Shown piece by piece: positions 28,784 through 47,034 of a DNA stretch of 64,000 nt (the first letter of the stretch is position 1; the number at the start of each line of letters is the position of its first letter). The notes under the pieces were generated by a model, which was not told where the DNA came from, did no database searches, and saw only the letters and a list, made by a program, of their open reading frames with translations. Source of the DNA: Ruminococcus champanellensis 18P13 = JCM 17042. GTDB taxonomy: Bacteria; Bacillota; Clostridia; Oscillospirales; Ruminococcaceae. A program made the position numbers and the translations under genes. Location of the stretch: assembly GCF_000210095.1 (NCBI RefSeq), contig NC_021039.1:2142113-2206112 (forward strand), in the 5' to 3' direction.

Positions 28784-28816
28784 AAGACCGCAGCCGGACA
28801 AGCTGCGGTCTTTTTT
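28784..28816 (+). terminator. Terminator after prs
   Basis: AAGACCGCAGC (28784-28794) / GCTGCGGTCTT (28802-28812), perfect 11-bp stem, then TTTTTT. On the other strand it also lies just beyond the AraC-type regulator stop. Confidence 0.9.
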
Positions 28817-31001
28817 ATGTGTCCGTCAAAGAGCATGCCCTGCGGTATTCCACCGGGGTCATGCCCGTATGCAGCCGGAACTGACGCAGGAAATACTTAC
28901 TGTCCCGATAGCCGCATTGCTGGGCAATCTGCTGTATGCTGTCCTGGGTGGTAAAAAGCAGATACCGGGCAAGCAGGATCCTGCCTTTGATGCAGTCCTG
29001 ATGGGGGTTGACGCCAAAGCAGGCTTTATAGATCGTTCGCAGGTGCCCGGAACTGTAGGAACAGGGGAGTCCTGTGCTGTCGGTTTCAAAAAACACCTCC
29101 GGGGTCAGATAGAACTGATTTCGCAGCGCAAGCATCTCCCGGTAGTGGGAACAAGTCCGCCGGGCAGCACTGATTCTGGTCAGCTGATCCAGCTCCTGCA
29201 GCGCCTTTGGCATTTCCGTCTGATAAGTTGAATTCGGCGTACAAAGCTGCGCAGTACATACGAAAGAATCGGTGCCGTAACACCGGGTGTATCCGACTGC
29301 CCGCAGCAGGATTGCACCCAGCAAATCTGCAAGAAGACGGCTGTCAGCGGTATCTGCACGCACCACACAGGCAAACGTGTTTTCCTCGACTCTGCCATAC
29401 AGCCGGGAGCCGGCACAGAAGCACTTGACTGCGTCAGATGCTGCCAGGAGCGCCTGAATCTTCTGCCTGGAGCCTTCGGTGGCATAGCTTTCGTCAAACA
29501 AGCAGACACGCAGCACCACAAGATGGACTTTTCGGGCATCGAACGTTTCAACAGCTGCATCAAAAGCAGAGTGAAACCCACGCTTGCTGTACATATCAGT
29601 CATGTTATCCACCGATTCCGACAGATTGCAGCACTGAGTCAGATACTGAATATCATTTTTCAACCGCAAAAACTCCAGACCGTTGCTGACTGCTTTCAGC
29701 CAGTGCCGGTACAATGGGGTGTTGGCTTCCGGCGTATGAAACTTCATTACCGCATAGCCCAGGGATCTTTGCAGAAAAAACAAGGGGCTGAAGCTGTATG
29801 CGGCAGCCGAACCGCTGCAAAATCGTTCCAAATCATGTTTTTGTATCGTAAATGGCTCTTCCTGAGCCAGAAGGCTGTAGCATGTCACAGTTTCCGACAC
29901 TGCCCGGTCGTTGTACCAGTCCTCATACAGGCACAGATAAACCTCCTCTGCATGTCGAAGCATATACCGATACTTTCGACAAACCTGTAACAGATCCGGG
30001 ATAGTACGACACTCGGTCAATTCAAATTCCAGCTGTCCGAACAGGTTTAGAAAGTCATCCGTGCGCTTCAGACTGATCCGCTCCTGTTCGGCAAGCAGCT
30101 GTGCCGGATCCAGACCGCATTGACAGGAATCTCCAGGAATCAGTCTGCCCGGAGGAGGGGTAAAATCCGTCCCCGGATGCCCGTCCAGCTGTTGCTGCAT
30201 CAGTCGGATCGCCTCCGCCCCCAACTGCGCCCGATTGCGCTGATAGGTGGTCAGAATCGGGTAATGGTATATACGCTCCTGAATGTACTCATAGCCTGTG
30301 ATCGTAATGCGATCCGGCACACAGATTCCGTTTTTTGCAAAAGTGTCCAGCATACCGTAAGCCATGTAATCGTTTCCGCAGAGCACTGCCTGGGGAAAGG
30401 GTCTGTCTTTTTTGATGTAGGATTCAGCAAGCTCTGCACCGGAATTCATCCAGAAATCACCGAAATGCACTTTATCCGGATCGTAGGTGAGTCCATGACG
30501 CTCCAGGGACGCCCGGTATCCGGCAACCCGTTGGTGAGACGCTTCAATAAAGTCAAACCCGGTCAGCATTTCCATATTCGTAAATCCATGTTTTTCGATC
30601 AGATGATCTGTAATCCGTTCAAAATCCAGTGCGTCACTGGTATTGAGAAACTGAAAATGCTCCAGAACAAAGCCAGGTTGCGGTGTGCCCAAAGCGATCA
30701 ATGGTACATGCGCCATGTGAGACAGATGTTCTACAATCAGTTTTTGCTGGGATGTGTTCAGTATTGTTTCTGAAAATAGGATCAGGCCGTCAAAGGCATC
30801 CGAAAGGATCAGATCGTAGATGTCATTTTCCCGTTCAATGGTGTTTGCCGGGTCATTGGGATTATAAATATTTGAAAGAAACAACAGGTCGATGTTTCGT
30901 TCCTGTGCCTGCCGGAGCATACCGGAAAGCAGTTCGGACTGCTCTATATCGCTGAGCTGGGATGCGATCACGCCAATTATGTATCTGTTGGACTTGCTCA
31001 T
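28815..31001 (-). CDS. AraC-family regulator with periplasmic-binding-like sensor and degenerate GGDEF-like middle domain
   Basis: 728 aa. Residues ~8-290 resemble a LacI/periplasmic-binding sensor (YIIGVIASQLSDIEQSELLS, TITGYEYIQERIYHYPILTT). A linker of helices follows (about 300-460). Residues ~465-600 look like a degenerate GGDEF domain (DMYSKRGFHSAFDAAVETF, then RLYGRVEENTFACVVR where GGDEF would be), so no cyclase activity is expected. The last 100 residues hold the two AraC helix-turn-helices (QQIAQQCGYRDSKYFLRQFR, GMTPVEYRR). It is divergent from the GH98 gene, with repeats between the promoters, so it probably senses a sugar and activates that gene. Confidence 0.9.
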   Translation of the reverse strand: MSKSNRYIIGVIASQLSDIEQSELLSGMLRQAQERNIDLLFLSNIYNPNDPANTIERENDIYDLILSDAFDGLILFSETILNTSQQKLIVEHLSHMAHVPLIALGTPQPGFVLEHFQFLNTSDALDFERITDHLIEKHGFTNMEMLTGFDFIEASHQRVAGYRASLERHGLTYDPDKVHFGDFWMNSGAELAESYIKKDRPFPQAVLCGNDYMAYGMLDTFAKNGICVPDRITITGYEYIQERIYHYPILTTYQRNRAQLGAEAIRLMQQQLDGHPGTDFTPPPGRLIPGDSCQCGLDPAQLLAEQERISLKRTDDFLNLFGQLEFELTECRTIPDLLQVCRKYRYMLRHAEEVYLCLYEDWYNDRAVSETVTCYSLLAQEEPFTIQKHDLERFCSGSAAAYSFSPLFFLQRSLGYAVMKFHTPEANTPLYRHWLKAVSNGLEFLRLKNDIQYLTQCCNLSESVDNMTDMYSKRGFHSAFDAAVETFDARKVHLVVLRVCLFDESYATEGSRQKIQALLAASDAVKCFCAGSRLYGRVEENTFACVVRADTADSRLLADLLGAILLRAVGYTRCYGTDSFVCTAQLCTPNSTYQTEMPKALQELDQLTRISAARRTCSHYREMLALRNQFYLTPEVFFETDSTGLPCSYSSGHLRTIYKACFGVNPHQDCIKGRILLARYLLFTTQDSIQQIAQQCGYRDSKYFLRQFRLHTGMTPVEYRRACSLTDT

Positions 31002-31174: not shown

Positions 31175-34100
31175 ATGAAACTTAAAAAAATCTGTGCTGC
31201 ATTGCTATCTGCGGCATTGCTCACAAGTTCCTTTGCCTATGCTTCGCCGAAGGGCACAGCCGGCAACGACGGTTCCTCTCTCTCATTCCTTGGCAATCAG
31301 TTTCAGGTCTCCACAATGACCGCAGAGGCGGCAAACAGCGTCATGCGCAGACCCTGCTCCCCGGATCAGCCCATGCTGATCGTGCACATCGACACCTGGA
31401 ATTACGCAGATCCGGCAAAAATCATTGCTTTGATTCCGGAGGATATCAAGCCCTATGTAGTGTTCAACATTTCGCTGTCCATCAATTGGAGCTCTACGGA
31501 TCACAAGTGGCTGATGGTGCAGGACGGGTATGAATGTGCCAAGTCCTGGCTGAAAACCTGCGCAGACGAAGGTGTATGGTGTATGGTACAGCCTGCAAGC
31601 GGCGGTCAGTGTCATCTGCCGGATTACGACTCTTCCGGAAACATTGTAAATTACCCCAACAAGAGCCAGTTCGTTCCCCACGCCGATGATGATTATGAAA
31701 ACACCATCTATGCAGAATTTTTCCGGGATTACCCCAACTTCATCGGCTTCAACTACAGCGAGCAGTTCTGGGGCTTTGAGTCTCAGGACTTCCCGGTAAC
31801 CCCCATTCAGCGGTATCAGCATTTTGCAAAGCTGCTGAAGCTGTGCAACAAGTACGGCGGCTATCTGAACATCAACTGGTGTGCCAATTACTGGAGCGCT
31901 GCACTGAATCCAGTGGCAATGCTGAAACGCTGCCCCGAATGGCGCAGTGCCTGTGAGCAGTATTCTGCCAATTTGCAATTGGAAGAAAAGTACACCCAAC
32001 TTGGCTTCAGTGAGGATGTGGAAAGCGAAGTGCTGGGAGCATACCTGTCCGGCTATTGCGGCAACTACGGCGTTCGGTATGATGAAACCGGTTGGTCTGA
32101 TTCCACCTGGTCAGGCAGCGGAGATGTAACCAAGGAACAATACCGACAAATCACCGGCCTGCCTATTCACATGGAGCGCATGGCACTGAATGGTGCTACG
32201 ATCATCGATGGACCCGAGCTTGTGTGGGCGGATGACTTCGCAGAAAAATGGGGCGGCATAAAGGATGGCGACTACAGTTGCCGCAGTTGGGACACCAAAG
32301 ATCAATATGTGAACGATACCCTAGGCTTCTTTCGCAAGCTGGTAGATGGAACCATCCGGATTCCCACCCGGCAGGAAGTCATCGAGCGAACCAAGGTGGT
32401 TGTGATTCAGGATAACACGACCGGGGATAATCACAACAAATACAGCACCTATCCTACTCTGTTTGAGGGGCTGTATCGCATGTCCGGAGACGGGAATCTG
32501 GATAAAAATTACAATCCATATAAGAGTACAGGACGATATCCCACAATCCCCACAGTTTATGCCCTGCGGGACAGCGTGGCAAAGAGCTTCCAGGTGCAGA
32601 TCAAGCAGTCCTCCATCCCGTCCCGGTGGAGCTCCATTTCCGCAAAGCAGGATGAGTTCAACAAGCTGTTCGCATCCGACTACTACGGCAATTGCTACGC
32701 AGGCAGGTATGAGAACACATGGGTTACCTACAACTCCAATAAGGATGGCAGCAACTGCGGTGCGGTTCTTTCTCTAAAGTACAACACCTGCAAGAATCTG
32801 GACGTTAACTTCAACCAATACGGCAACGCCCTGATCAAGGAGTACAGTGACCGGATTGACATTTACGCAAACAACTTTGACGAAAAGGCACAGACTACCC
32901 TGAGAACCGATACCTTCAAGATTTCCGGCTGTGCAGCAAAGCCCAGCTATTCCGCAAAGGATACGGGCAGAAACCAGACTGCATCCCAGATCAGCGAAAG
33001 CTATGCAAACGGTACATACACCTTAACTGTAAAGCACAACGGTCCGGTAGAGATCAGCATTCAGTGCAAGGGCAATGAGACCGGAAGACTTTCCAATCCC
33101 AAGGAGTCCAGCGTAAAAGCGCCTGCATATCCTTCCTTCTACACCGGCGTTCGTCAGTATGAGGGTGAATTCTTCGACACACAGAATGTAGAAGGCAACG
33201 TAGCAAACGGCTGCGGCAGTGGTGTAACCGGCTTTTGGGGACAGGGCTTCCTGAAGTACGGCGCAAAGAATAATGCAGCCGTTCGGGACACTGTTTCTAC
33301 CACCAAAGCAGGAAAATTTGACCTGACACTGCGGTATTCCGCAACCTCCGACATCAACAACGTAGACCTATATGTAAACGGCAGCAAGGTTAAGACCCTG
33401 TCCATGCCCAAGGGCAGCAGCTACAGCGATTGGAAAACTGTGACCCAATCCATTGATCTGAAGGCAGGGGACAACCAGGTCGAGCTGAAATCCAATGCAG
33501 CACTGGATGGCTCCCTGTATTTGGACTGCTTTACAGTCAAGGGGGATTTCGGCACCGGAACAGTCGAGGATCCGGATCCCATCAACGGCAAGATCATTCA
33601 GGAGCTTACCGTATTCGACAAGGAGAATGCTGCCGACTGGTCCATCTATTATGACGCAAAGGTTGGCTCCGTACTCTACGGTGACCGGGATCTTACTATC
33701 ACTTCCATGCCCAAGAATCTGGTGAATGCTGAAGCGATCCGCACAGCATGCGATTCCAAGCTGAGCACAAACGATCTTGGCAAGTTTACGGCCGGTGCAG
33801 ATGCAACCATCTATACAGCTGTGGACACCAGAGTGGTTGAAAACATGCCGGAATGGCTGAAGGCATGGACATTTGCAGGATGCAGCGTGACCACTTCCAA
33901 TGACGTTACCCTGATGCTCTACAAGCTGAACGTAAAGAAGGGCGATGTTGTGGCACTGGGAACCAACGGAGGCAGCGGCAATTCTGCAAACTACATTGTA
34001 TTTGCCGTTCCCCAGGAAAAAATCGTCAAGGGCGATGTGAACCTGGACGGCGTCATCAACGGTTTTGACCTGATTCTGGCAAAGCGCGGCATGGCAAACG

Positions 34101-34279
34101 GATTCACCGATACCCGTTCTTTCGATGCTGCTGATGTGGATAAGGATGAAAAATTAGAAAAGGACGATATCACACAGCTGCAGAATTTCATCAAGCTGTC
34201 TGCAAAGGAATTCACAGAAACACCTGTAACAAAGCCTGCGCCTGCTGTACTCACCGAACCGGCAGATGATCCCGGCTAA
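31175..34279 (+). CDS. Secreted GH98-type glycoside hydrolase with CBM35-like domain and type I dockerin
   Basis: 1034 aa. Signal peptide about 1-24 (MKLKKICAALLSAALLTSSF then AYA). Residues ~45-480 match GH98: MLIVHIDTWNYADPAKIIAL, FIGFNYSEQFWGFE, YDETGW (about 302), IIDGPELVWADDF. CBM35-like beta-sandwich at ~660-790 (YEGEFFDTQNVEG, LYLDCFTV). A further module (~805-950, VFDKENAADWSIYY...AVPQEK) is of a kind seen in Ruminococcus exoenzymes. Dockerin at ~951-1012 with two calcium loops, GDVNLDGVINGFDLILAKRG and AADVDKDEKLEKDDITQLQN. GH98 enzymes include blood-group endo-galactosidases and xylan-active members; substrate is undecided here. The dockerin implies attachment to a cohesin scaffold. 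Confidence 0.92.
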   Translation: MKLKKICAALLSAALLTSSFAYASPKGTAGNDGSSLSFLGNQFQVSTMTAEAANSVMRRPCSPDQPMLIVHIDTWNYADPAKIIALIPEDIKPYVVFNISLSINWSSTDHKWLMVQDGYECAKSWLKTCADEGVWCMVQPASGGQCHLPDYDSSGNIVNYPNKSQFVPHADDDYENTIYAEFFRDYPNFIGFNYSEQFWGFESQDFPVTPIQRYQHFAKLLKLCNKYGGYLNINWCANYWSAALNPVAMLKRCPEWRSACEQYSANLQLEEKYTQLGFSEDVESEVLGAYLSGYCGNYGVRYDETGWSDSTWSGSGDVTKEQYRQITGLPIHMERMALNGATIIDGPELVWADDFAEKWGGIKDGDYSCRSWDTKDQYVNDTLGFFRKLVDGTIRIPTRQEVIERTKVVVIQDNTTGDNHNKYSTYPTLFEGLYRMSGDGNLDKNYNPYKSTGRYPTIPTVYALRDSVAKSFQVQIKQSSIPSRWSSISAKQDEFNKLFASDYYGNCYAGRYENTWVTYNSNKDGSNCGAVLSLKYNTCKNLDVNFNQYGNALIKEYSDRIDIYANNFDEKAQTTLRTDTFKISGCAAKPSYSAKDTGRNQTASQISESYANGTYTLTVKHNGPVEISIQCKGNETGRLSNPKESSVKAPAYPSFYTGVRQYEGEFFDTQNVEGNVANGCGSGVTGFWGQGFLKYGAKNNAAVRDTVSTTKAGKFDLTLRYSATSDINNVDLYVNGSKVKTLSMPKGSSYSDWKTVTQSIDLKAGDNQVELKSNAALDGSLYLDCFTVKGDFGTGTVEDPDPINGKIIQELTVFDKENAADWSIYYDAKVGSVLYGDRDLTITSMPKNLVNAEAIRTACDSKLSTNDLGKFTAGADATIYTAVDTRVVENMPEWLKAWTFAGCSVTTSNDVTLMLYKLNVKKGDVVALGTNGGSGNSANYIVFAVPQEKIVKGDVNLDGVINGFDLILAKRGMANGFTDTRSFDAADVDKDEKLEKDDITQLQNFIKLSAKEFTETPVTKPAPAVLTEPADDPG

Positions 34280-43620: not shown

Positions 43621-43656
43621 CCCTGGGTGTGCTTTGCATGCCCAGGGGTCTTTTTA
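43621..43656. terminator. Bidirectional terminator between GNAT gene and surE
   Basis: CCCTGGG / CCCAGGG (43621-43627 / 43641-43647), with GTCTTTTT on the plus strand and AATTTTTATAC on the minus strand; the two converging genes share it. Confidence 0.75.
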
Positions 43657-44367
43657 TCCCACATTGTTTACAATGCCAACGGATACGTACTGATGACAGA
43701 TGGCAAACAGATCCGTACCCTCACTGCCCTGCCAATTGCGCCCGGGAATCACCCGGAACCGCATATGATCCGGATCCAGTTCCTCTGCGCTGTAGTCATC
43801 CGCATAAAACGAATCCTTTGAAACAGTGCATCCATGCATAACGCCCCTGCATGCCTCCAGAGGACAGCCGGGAAAGTTAATGTTCCAGATTTGAGAATCC
43901 GTCAGCTTCTTGTCTATGTACTCCTCCAGCAGCTGCGGCAGATACTTGTCCGTTACAGGACACTGCGGGGAATCCTGCGAAAGGGCAATGGCGTGAATGC
44001 CCCAGAATGCAGCCTCCAGCGCTGCGCCCACGGTAGCGGAATACTGAATGTCTGACGCAATGTTGTACCCGTTGTTGATGCCGGAAAGCACCACATCCGG
44101 CTTCCTGCCCATCAGCTTGATGCCCACCCGGACACAGTCCACCGGAGTGCCGCTGCACGCAAAAGCCCGTACATCAGCTGGAAAAGCATCCTGCCGCCAA
44201 ACCTCAACCGAATTCAGATAGTGAATGCTGTGGGACATGCCGCTGCGCTGACTGTCCGGTGCCACTACCCACACCTCTCCATAGGGCCTTGCAGCCTGTG
44301 CTAGCCGGAGAATGCCCTCCGCCTGTATGCCATCATCGTTTACAACTAAAATGCTTCTGGTTTTCAT
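43654..44367 (-). CDS. surE: 5'/3'-nucleotidase SurE
   Basis: 237 aa from ATG 44367, behind AGGAGG. N-terminal ILVVNDDGIQAEGI carries the metal-binding Asp pair. PDSQRSGMSHSI, SGTPVDCV and VLSGINNGYN complete the SurE motifs. It dephosphorylates nucleoside monophosphates. Single gene; its end abuts the shared terminator. Confidence 0.95.
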   Translation of the reverse strand: MKTRSILVVNDDGIQAEGILRLAQAARPYGEVWVVAPDSQRSGMSHSIHYLNSVEVWRQDAFPADVRAFACSGTPVDCVRVGIKLMGRKPDVVLSGINNGYNIASDIQYSATVGAALEAAFWGIHAIALSQDSPQCPVTDKYLPQLLEEYIDKKLTDSQIWNINFPGCPLEACRGVMHGCTVSKDSFYADDYSAEELDPDHMRFRVIPGRNWQGSEGTDLFAICHQYVSVGIVNNVG

Positions 44368-44389
44368 TGCAGATTCCTCCTGAAAAAGC

Positions 44390-44425
44390 AAAGCCACTCT
44401 TGACGCAATGGTCAAAAGTGGCTTT
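44390..44425 (-). terminator. Terminator of the cohesin-like lipoprotein gene
   Basis: AAAGCCACTTTTGAC / GTCAAGAGTGGCTTT on the minus strand (44425-44411 and 44404-44390), 15-bp stem with one wobble pair, then GCTTTTTC, 13 bp past the stop. Its closeness shows the short C-terminus of the gene is genuine. Confidence 0.85.
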
Positions 44426-44438
44426 TGTTTGTATCAGA

Positions 44439-45290
44439 TCACGGATACATACCGATATTTGCTGAAGTTGCGAATTCCTTTGCTGCACCGCCATCCACAT
44501 ATTCAAGCACGGCAGCATCGTACTGGAACTGGAAGTCGAATGCGGCAAAGCCGGAATTGTTGCTGATGCTGAAGGTCACATCCACTGTATCACCGGGCTT
44601 GCCTTCCACGGAATTGCAGGTAATCAGGAAAGAACTTGTGTCCGGAGCTTGATCCTTCTGTGCGCCGGCGTTTACACCAACATATCCCTTGGCAGTTTTG
44701 ATATCCTTAATGGTCACTGCATCATAGGTACAGAAGTCGGTGTGGGTGATGCTGATGGGATAATTGCCTGCCTGGGCACCTTCTTTGATCTTGAACCGGA
44801 AGGTCAAAAACTGACCATTGAAGGTGAAATCCCCCTGCTTGGTCAGATCCATCCACAATGCCTGTCTGGTCTCCAGCTTGGGTGTATTGGTGGAAGAACC
44901 GCTCTGTGTAGTGGTCACTGCCGGATTCGGATCACTCTGTGCCGGATTACCCGGATTGGTCTGTGCAGCAGTTGTAGCCGGCGGCACATAGGGAACTGTT
45001 GCCACATTGCCATTGGCATCCGTGGTAACAGCAAACACATTGCCGTTGGCATCGGTCACTGTGGTAACTGTGGTGTCGGTGTTGCCGCTGGGTGCAGCGG
45101 TGGTGGTTCCGGTGGAGGAACCCTTGGAATCGTCGATCAGAGTGATCTGCAAACCGGGCTGCAGAATGGCACTCAGTTCCGATTCCGTCAGACTTTCTGT
45201 CTTCCCGCCGGATTTGTTACAGCCGGCAAATGCAAATGCCAGAGCACCAACCAGAGCCAGTGCCAGAACCTTTTTACGATAGCTTTTCAT
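44439..45290 (-). CDS. Lipoprotein with a cohesin-like domain whose two halves are in swapped order
   Basis: 283 aa. Lipobox AFAGC (Cys ~23) anchors it outside. A Thr/Ser/Pro-rich linker (about 55-140) contains a short repeat (DANGNVFAVTTDANGNVATV). Residues ~145-208 (ALWMDLTKQGDFTFNGQFLT then FRFKIKEGAQAGNYPISIT) look like the C-terminal half of a cohesin. Residues ~222-283 (ITCNSVEGKPGDTVDVTFSI then SNNSGFAAFDFQFQYDAAVL) look like the N-terminal half, including the KPGDTV strand. So the order is reversed relative to known cohesins: a circular permutation, or two half domains. A terminator follows directly, so it is not a window or frame artefact. Possible dockerin receptor. Confidence 0.78.
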   Translation of the reverse strand: MKSYRKKVLALALVGALAFAFAGCNKSGGKTESLTESELSAILQPGLQITLIDDSKGSSTGTTTAAPSGNTDTTVTTVTDANGNVFAVTTDANGNVATVPYVPPATTAAQTNPGNPAQSDPNPAVTTTQSGSSTNTPKLETRQALWMDLTKQGDFTFNGQFLTFRFKIKEGAQAGNYPISITHTDFCTYDAVTIKDIKTAKGYVGVNAGAQKDQAPDTSSFLITCNSVEGKPGDTVDVTFSISNNSGFAAFDFQFQYDAAVLEYVDGGAAKEFATSANIGMYP

Positions 45291-45366: not shown

Positions 45367-47034
45367 TCACACAGTTTTCAGAATCATCCGGTTCACAGCG
45401 CTAAGCAGTGCATTGGTGGAAGAAACGATAATATCCGTGTGAATCCCCACGCCCCAGAACAGCTGTCCCTTTCTGTCCTGCAAGGATACATAGGACACCG
45501 CCTTGGATTTAGAGCTGACCTCCAGCGCATGCTCTGTGTAGCTTTTCAGAGTATAATCCAGATTCAGCGCATTCCTGACCGCATTGCTCACCGCATCCAG
45601 ACGACCGTTTCCGCTGGCAGCGACGGTTTCTATGCCTGTACCGGACTGGATGGTCACAATGGCGTCAATGCCATCCTTCTGGGCGTAATGAATGGCAGGC
45701 AGTGCAATGGGACTGGACAGATTCACATAGGTATCCTGGAAGATCCGGTAAACCTCCTCCGGCAACAGCTCCTTGTGGGCACGATCAGAAATACTCTTGA
45801 CATGATAGCCAAAGCCCTCACGCATACCATCCGGCAGCTTGATGCCATAGTAATGTTCCAGCAGGTAGCCAATGCCTCCTTTGCCGGACTGGCTGTTGAT
45901 GCGTATCACGTCTCCGTCGTAGGTTCTGCCGATATCCAGGGGGTCAATGGGCAGATAGGGCACATTCCAGGTGCTGTCCGGATGACTCTCCCGCCATTTC
46001 ATCCCCTTGGCAATGGCATCCTGGTGGGAGCCGCTGAACGCCGCAAACACCAGGGAGCCGCTGTAGGGCTGCCGTTCGTTAATGTGCATACCAGTGGCAT
46101 GCTCATAGATCCGGGTCATTTCCGGCAGATCATGAAAATCCAGTCCCGGATCCACTCCCTGTGCGTACATATTCAGGGCAATGGTCACGATATCCGCATT
46201 GCCGGTACGCTCTCCGTTCCCAAACAGGGTACCCTCCACCCGGTCTGCGCCAGCCAGCAGAGCAAGCTCGCTTTCTGCCACTGCACAGCCCCGGTCGTTG
46301 TGGGGATGCACCGACAAGATCACCCGCTCCCGGTTGTGGAGATGCCTGGACAGATACGCCACCTGATTGGCATATACATGGGGCATCGCACAGGACACCG
46401 TATCCGGCAGATTGATAATAACCGGCTGGTTGCAATCCTGCTGCCACACATCCAACACCGCATTGCAGATCTCCAGAGCAAAGTCCATTTCCGTGCCGGT
46501 AAAACTCTCCGGAGAGTACTCCAACCGGATATCGCTGCTGCATTTGTCCCGGTATTCCCTGCAAAGCATTGCTCCCTCCACTGCCAGAGCAATAATCTCC
46601 GGCTTATCCTTGTGGAATACCTGGGTACGCTGGGCAACAGAGGTGGAATTGTACAAATGCACAATGGCATGGGGTGCCCCTTGGATGGCTTCAAAAGTTC
46701 TGGCAATGATATGCTCCCGGGACTGGGTCAGCACCTGGATGGTCACATCCTCCGGAATCAGATGCTCCTCGATCAGCGTCCGGCAAAAGGCATATTCTGT
46801 TTCGGAGGCTGCCGGAAAGCCGATCTCGATCTCCCGGAACCCAGCCTGTACCAGCATCTGAAAGAATGTCAGCTTGTCCTTCAGATTCATAGGGGTGACC
46901 AGCGCCTGGTTCCCGTCCCGCAGATCCACACTGCACCACACCGGGGGATGATCAATATAGGTTTTTCTGAGCCACTGGAACTCCCCCTCCGGTGCGGGGA
47001 AGAACTGGCGGGTATACTTGCTGCTGTGTTTCAT
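45367..47034 (-). CDS. leuA: 2-isopropylmalate synthase
   Basis: 555 aa. DRE-TIM barrel: VDLRDGNQALVTPM (metal and acetyl-CoA site) and SVHPHNDRGCAVAESELA (HxH metal ligands). GSHQDAIAKG follows. The C-terminal ~130 residues form the LeuA allosteric domain (VTIQSGTGIETVAASGNGRLDAV). It condenses acetyl-CoA with 2-ketoisovalerate, the committed step to leucine. Length matches the longer LeuA branch. Controlled by the T-box leader at 47065-47330. ATG behind GGAGG. Confidence 0.96.
   Translation of the reverse strand: MKHSSKYTRQFFPAPEGEFQWLRKTYIDHPPVWCSVDLRDGNQALVTPMNLKDKLTFFQMLVQAGFREIEIGFPAASETEYAFCRTLIEEHLIPEDVTIQVLTQSREHIIARTFEAIQGAPHAIVHLYNSTSVAQRTQVFHKDKPEIIALAVEGAMLCREYRDKCSSDIRLEYSPESFTGTEMDFALEICNAVLDVWQQDCNQPVIINLPDTVSCAMPHVYANQVAYLSRHLHNRERVILSVHPHNDRGCAVAESELALLAGADRVEGTLFGNGERTGNADIVTIALNMYAQGVDPGLDFHDLPEMTRIYEHATGMHINERQPYSGSLVFAAFSGSHQDAIAKGMKWRESHPDSTWNVPYLPIDPLDIGRTYDGDVIRINSQSGKGGIGYLLEHYYGIKLPDGMREGFGYHVKSISDRAHKELLPEEVYRIFQDTYVNLSSPIALPAIHYAQKDGIDAIVTIQSGTGIETVAASGNGRLDAVSNAVRNALNLDYTLKSYTEHALEVSSKSKAVSYVSLQDRKGQLFWGVGIHTDIIVSSTNALLSAVNRMILKTV

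Follow-up and report, generated by a model that had tools for sequence, protein, structure and literature searches.

A putative circularly permuted cohesin in a surface lipoprotein of Ruminococcus champanellensis and its dockerin-rich relatives

A lipoprotein gene of Ruminococcus champanellensis 18P13, a cellulose degrader of the human gut, very likely encodes a naturally circularly permuted cohesin, an inference from sequence to which we give a probability of about 0.95. Work on cohesins as scaffold modules goes back decades. The gene lies in the 64,000-nucleotide stretch of DNA analysed here (the window), which belongs to a genome represented by a single contig of 2,573,208 bases. Compared with ordinary PF00963 cohesins, the permuted module runs through β6-9 and then β1-4(5), with its termini near the β5-β6 turn and β9 looped to β1. 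Once rotated, it matches the same profile and strand motifs as the cellulosomal cohesin module (R. flavefaciens CohScaB3, C. thermocellum CipA), with comparable scores.

In its native order the protein encoded by this gene (the window protein) matched the Pfam Cohesin profile PF00963 with E=8.4e-13 and 49 bits (cut-off 24.1), in two stretches, the better of which pairs residues 225-276 with profile positions 5-58. Rotating the sequence gave one continuous stretch over profile positions 5-117 of 139 at 60.8 bits. Seven homologues from several genera likewise produced two Pfam stretches in native order and one long stretch, covering most or all of the profile, after rotation; Pfam cohesin matches in these proteins are split because the halves are permuted. 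When the native window protein was searched against the PDB with phmmer, residues 220-271 aligned with residues 4-57 of a chain of 5nrk, and residues 143-186 with residues 77-122. On rotation the E-value went from 2.7e-6 to 7.5e-9 and the query gave a single alignment whose junction falls at the β5-β6 turn of 5nrk.

For a rotation scan, a model was built from ordinary cohesins only, and every domain was rotated at each position and then scored. The set comprised 47 permuted domains, two of which are overlapping copies of one gene, and 27 held-out ordinary cohesins. The median score of the permuted domains rose from 45.8 to 83.5 bits (median gain 38, range 24-57), with the best cut in or near the loop that leads from β9 to β1, whereas the ordinary cohesins, with a median of 91 bits, gained only 0-1.4 bits. 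This contrast is about as clear as sequence evidence for circular permutation can be. The C-half precedes the N-half in all 47 family domains, none of which shows the ordinary β1 to β9 strand order. The initial annotation had proposed just such a permuted order, and that claim held, with strong support from both Pfam and the rotation scan; the fold and dockerin binding are unproven.

Table 1. Features of the permuted-cohesin gene, its surroundings in the window, and ordinary-order cohesin lipoproteins of genus g98
Feature	Position	Strand	Evidence
Permuted-cohesin lipoprotein gene, 283 aa	44439..45290	-	ORF list, sequence, orthologues
Signal peptide, residues 1-24, ending in lipobox-like FAGC	45219..45290	-	sequence; LAGC in 83%-identical orthologue
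Linker, residues 25-139: short conserved motif (SLTESELSAILQPGLQITLID) followed by TDANGNV repeats and a stretch rich in Thr/Ser/Pro	44874..45218	-	
Cohesin C-terminal half, first in chain (β6-β9), residues 140-207	44670..44873	-	Pfam, PDB phmmer, AF2
Joining loop β9 to β1, residues 208-220	44631..44669	-	loop-length count, rotation scan
Cohesin N-terminal half, last in chain (β1-β4 plus helix/possible β5), residues 221-283	44442..44630	-	Pfam, phmmer, AF2
Sigma-70 promoter, perfect, TTGACA-18-TATAAT, ~30 bp 5′ of start codon	45322..45351	-	sequence
Rho-independent terminator, 15-pair stem and T-run, stem beginning at 44425, 13 nt past stop	44390..44425	-	sequence
leuA (2-isopropylmalate synthase), upstream neighbour	45367..47034	-	
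surE, downstream neighbour, past terminator	43654..44370	-	
GH98-CBM6/35-dockerin enzyme, 10.2 kb from permuted gene	31175..34279	+	
Ordinary-order cohesin lipoproteins, g98	L135:4324-5079, L136:3865-4647, L129:4020-4907, L130:1553-2527		

The window protein meets the criterion for a bacterial lipoprotein, a signal peptide with a lipobox and Cys (Table 1). Its lipobox has an atypical F at -3, replaced by L in the closest orthologue, and almost all full-length homologues have the Cys. A little downstream of this lipidated residue, at residues about 31-51 (about 45140-45200, minus strand), lies the conserved motif SLTESELSAILQPGLQITLID, which is TLSSEEIEQLKKQDLTF-like in relatives; the rest of the linker around it is low-complexity. 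The idea that the motif is a substitute β5 was not supported: cohesin scores did not rise consistently when the motif or another window of the linker was placed between the halves. The C-terminal domain comprises ~144 residues, and the chain terminus (..NIGMYP) corresponds to the β5-β6 turn. We found no LPXTG sorting signal at the C-terminus, which reads ..ANIGMYP, and no dockerin match within the protein, for which cohesin is the only family over its cut-off.

With its own perfect promoter and 15-pair terminator, the gene is likely to be a separate transcription unit, as far as can be judged from sequence alone. Only two perfect sigma-70 promoters occur in the window, the second by a tRNA-Leu gene. 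An 11- or 12-of-12 promoter lies within 120 bases upstream in 20 of the 25 family genes with a usable start (the window gene counted), while ~0.015 would be expected per such stretch from the density in 20 neighbourhood loci; this excess makes strong expression likely, again by inference. Perfect or near-perfect sigma-70 promoters 5′ of permuted genes are kept across genera. Three further claims of the initial annotation, a lipobox followed by a Thr-rich linker, a terminator 13 bp past the stop and a GH98 dockerin enzyme 10 kb away, were all borne out.

Counted from the end of β9 (GxVxV) to the turn after β1 (PGD or similar), 44 of 46 members have 24-26 residues; in the other two the search pattern matched a PGD/SGD-like triplet that comes earlier in the chain. 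The sequence of the joining loop itself is variable across the family. In a solved ruminococcal cohesin β1 and β9 are parallel neighbours (PMC5429695), and the joining loop must therefore span the length of a strand; a loop of ~13 residues suits a single closed domain. The near-constant length thus favours one closed domain over the pairing of half-domains between molecules. It had been argued at the outset that the termini of the ordinary module are close together, which is correct in part: β1 and β9 lie side by side but run parallel, and a strand-long loop is required.

Structure prediction, an early suggested check, gave an all-beta AF2 model from a three-sequence alignment (pLDDT 74.6, pTM 0.73). 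A short helix after β4 in this model is comparable to the helix between β4 and β5 described for other cohesins (PMC5429695). AF2 on the window sequence alone was uninformative (pLDDT 48.6), and Foldseek against the PDB returned no useful match, as might be expected of a sequential method that is not designed to recognise permutants. The jelly-roll cohesin fold of the permuted domain is an inference from sequence and the AF2 model, with no permutation-aware structural comparison. The nine strands of the cohesin jelly-roll form sheets 9-1-2-7-4 and 8-3-6-5, and the 8-3-6-5 sheet is the dockerin face (PMC5429695, PMC8063739). The new termini, near the β5-β6 turn, fall at the edge of this dockerin-binding sheet. 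The tail of the window protein is long enough for β5, since NIGMYP is matched to the 5nrk strand that precedes the turn; in several genera the tail is shorter, and there β5 may be missing.

A search for homologues with the same reversed order, the other early suggested check, detected the permuted architecture in 44 of 398 genomes sampled from the bacterial family and in 9 of the 126 genera among them, and a profile search added a tenth genus (genome G057). Two congeners encode proteins with 83% and 47% identity to the window protein, and all homologues stop at a similar point, 0-20 residues past the N-half match. Outside the family, the longer hits that we checked in an order sample (394 genomes) and a class sample (274 genomes), both overlapping the family, were ordinary tandem-cohesin junctions; candidates in viral contigs were also tried and rejected. 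A tandem junction of this kind would also be expected in the ancestor of the permutation.

Four genomes of genus g98 have an ordinary-order cohesin lipoprotein immediately upstream of one or two permuted ones, on the same strand and with gaps of ~15-80 bases. These proteins likewise have a lipoprotein signal and a single C-terminal cohesin, differing in their ordinary strand order, and some share TDxxG linker repeats with the permuted proteins. We regard this type as the likely parent of the permuted genes. The gene rows (L129, L130, L135 and L136) are operon-like, and in another genome, G243 (L128), three permuted genes follow one another. In a tree of rotated and ordinary domains the main permuted clade was grouped with an SH-aLRT of 99, and a single clade for all permuted members was not rejected (AU p 0.44); the tree, built on 139 columns, is compatible with a single origin of the permutation, which is possible and not proved. 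The route that we infer would begin with tandem duplication of an ordinary cohesin lipoprotein; the first copy would then have lost its front half and the second its back half, leaving C1-N2.

Permuted genes co-occur with large dockerin sets. The family search found them in 44 of the 55 genomes that have 40 or more dockerin candidates and in none of the other 343; by genus, the counts are 9 of 17 dockerin-rich genera versus 0 of 109. The dockerin numbers are first-look counts, from which 15 candidates per genome were scored, and all 15 passed in every carrier. The association is inflated by the common ancestry of the 9-10 genera, and relatives of R. albus are dockerin-rich yet have no permuted gene. 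On balance we lean towards the permuted lipoprotein being a lipid-anchored dockerin receptor at the cell surface, a reading in which both dockerin binding and fold are inferred and for which there are no binding data. Against it, the cut lies on the dockerin-binding sheet and β5 is perhaps absent in some members, so docking could be weakened or abolished.

According to the receptor model, the chain would run from the lipid-modified Cys through a flexible linker to β6-7-8-9, the joining loop, β1-2-3-4 and a helix or short β5. The linker would keep the cohesin module above the membrane, and dockerin enzymes or adaptor scaffoldins would dock on the 8-3-6(-5) sheet. The GH98-CBM6/35-dockerin enzyme is a conceivable ligand, with no direct link shown. 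In cohesins the β1/β9 pair acts as the mechanical clamp (PMC6018229); with the tether entering beside β6 and β9 covalently joined to β1, load would be predicted to bypass it. A bolder reading, that these proteins form a distinct class of natural permuted cohesins and serve ruminococcal cellulosomes as their membrane-proximal dockerin receptor, has in our judgement slightly the worse of the odds. If it were true, the closed clamp and the tether at the binding sheet would alter both the receptor's way of bearing load and the orientation of its bound enzymes.

The main rival, which remains possible, is a permuted cohesin fold that does not bind dockerin, in which another surface or the opened β5/β6 edge binds a cell-wall component, a regulator or another lipoprotein. 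In its favour are the position of the permutation point on the dockerin-binding sheet, the apparent shortening of β5 in several members, the conserved membrane-near motif, which suggests an extra function, and the R. albus relatives, which manage many dockerins without the gene. The strong co-occurrence with large dockerin sets and the presence of ordinary cohesin sister genes within the same gene rows speak against it. A second alternative, already raised in its head-to-tail form in the initial annotation, is that two molecules supply complementary half-domains to each other, head-to-tail or by domain swap, to give a self-assembling surface receptor. This is formally possible, the halves being reversed, and some genomes have tandem permuted genes; we consider it very unlikely, because the β9-β1 connection is near-constant, as in a closed loop, where a swap linker need not be, and all or nearly all strands are present within one chain. 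That the gene is a decayed or truncated tandem cohesin, or an artefact of assembly, is all but excluded: truncation of a tandem cohesin would indeed give C1-N2, and ordinary tandem cohesins outside the family match over the same junction, but the genome is in one contig, the promoter and terminator signals are strong, and conservation across at least nine genera, in intact homologues each with a signal peptide and a stop, refutes it. Two unrelated immunoglobulin-like half-matches without a cohesin, suggested by weak Reeler and Ig hits, can be dismissed with similar confidence: the rotated domains score 41-63 bits as cohesins, where the cut-off is 24, and no other family reaches its own cut-off.

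The permuted lipoprotein resembles the R. flavefaciens anchoring scaffoldin ScaE (PMC5301203) in holding a single cohesin at the surface. ScaE has a C-terminal sortase LPXTG anchor and an ordinary module, whereas the window protein has an N-terminal lipid anchor and a permuted one; it also differs from cohesin-dockerin adaptor scaffoldins of the ScaC/ScaF type, which carry a C-terminal dockerin in the same chain. The divergent putative cohesins ScaK, L, M, N and P of R. flavefaciens FD-1 are also cohesin-like without established binding; they were judged too divergent for inclusion in binding tests (PMC5301203). Some of them might be permuted, as the bolder reading would also allow. Surveys of ruminococcal cohesins describe proteins in which one cohesin is fused to regions of unknown function, as well as cohesins whose divergence precluded tests (PMC4081043, PMC5301203), and cohesins have been recounted with AF2 (PMC11557425); strand order is not discussed in the relevant sections of these three papers. 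We found no earlier report of a natural permuted cohesin in the open-access literature searched, a scope that excludes the R. champanellensis scaffoldin paper, which may list the protein as a putative cohesin. If dockerin binding, here inferred, is real, the conserved permuted family would be an added anchoring component for a dockerin-rich ruminococcal gut clade and an unusual way of holding enzymes at the surface. A permuted cohesin is also a natural experiment on cohesin mechanics, with the β1/β9 clamp closed covalently, and a ready-made part for designer cellulosomes.

Several further observations concern individual genomes and loci. In G383 (93% complete), with 175 first-look dockerin candidates, the permuted domain G383:C75:34719-35585 (L018, L048) is the only Pfam cohesin above cut-off; this status is tentative because Pfam under-detects ruminococcal type III cohesins (PMC11557425) and the genome is incomplete. 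The idea that a permuted gene is the missing cohesin of R. albus found no support: G161, an R. albus-like genome that is dockerin-rich and cohesin-poor, lacks a permuted cohesin and has no more than an N-half within a protein of 753 aa. We take its genus, g66, to be that of R. albus because G161:C31:4053-10355 bears the adhE cluster of plasmid pRUMAL01 from R. albus 7, with 96% identity. ORF clustering of the loci showed no widespread shared neighbour of permuted genes, the commonest being a leuA-sized ORF at five loci. In the window, the GH98 enzyme gene is divergent from that of an AraC-type regulator with a sugar-binding-protein-like domain (28815-31001).
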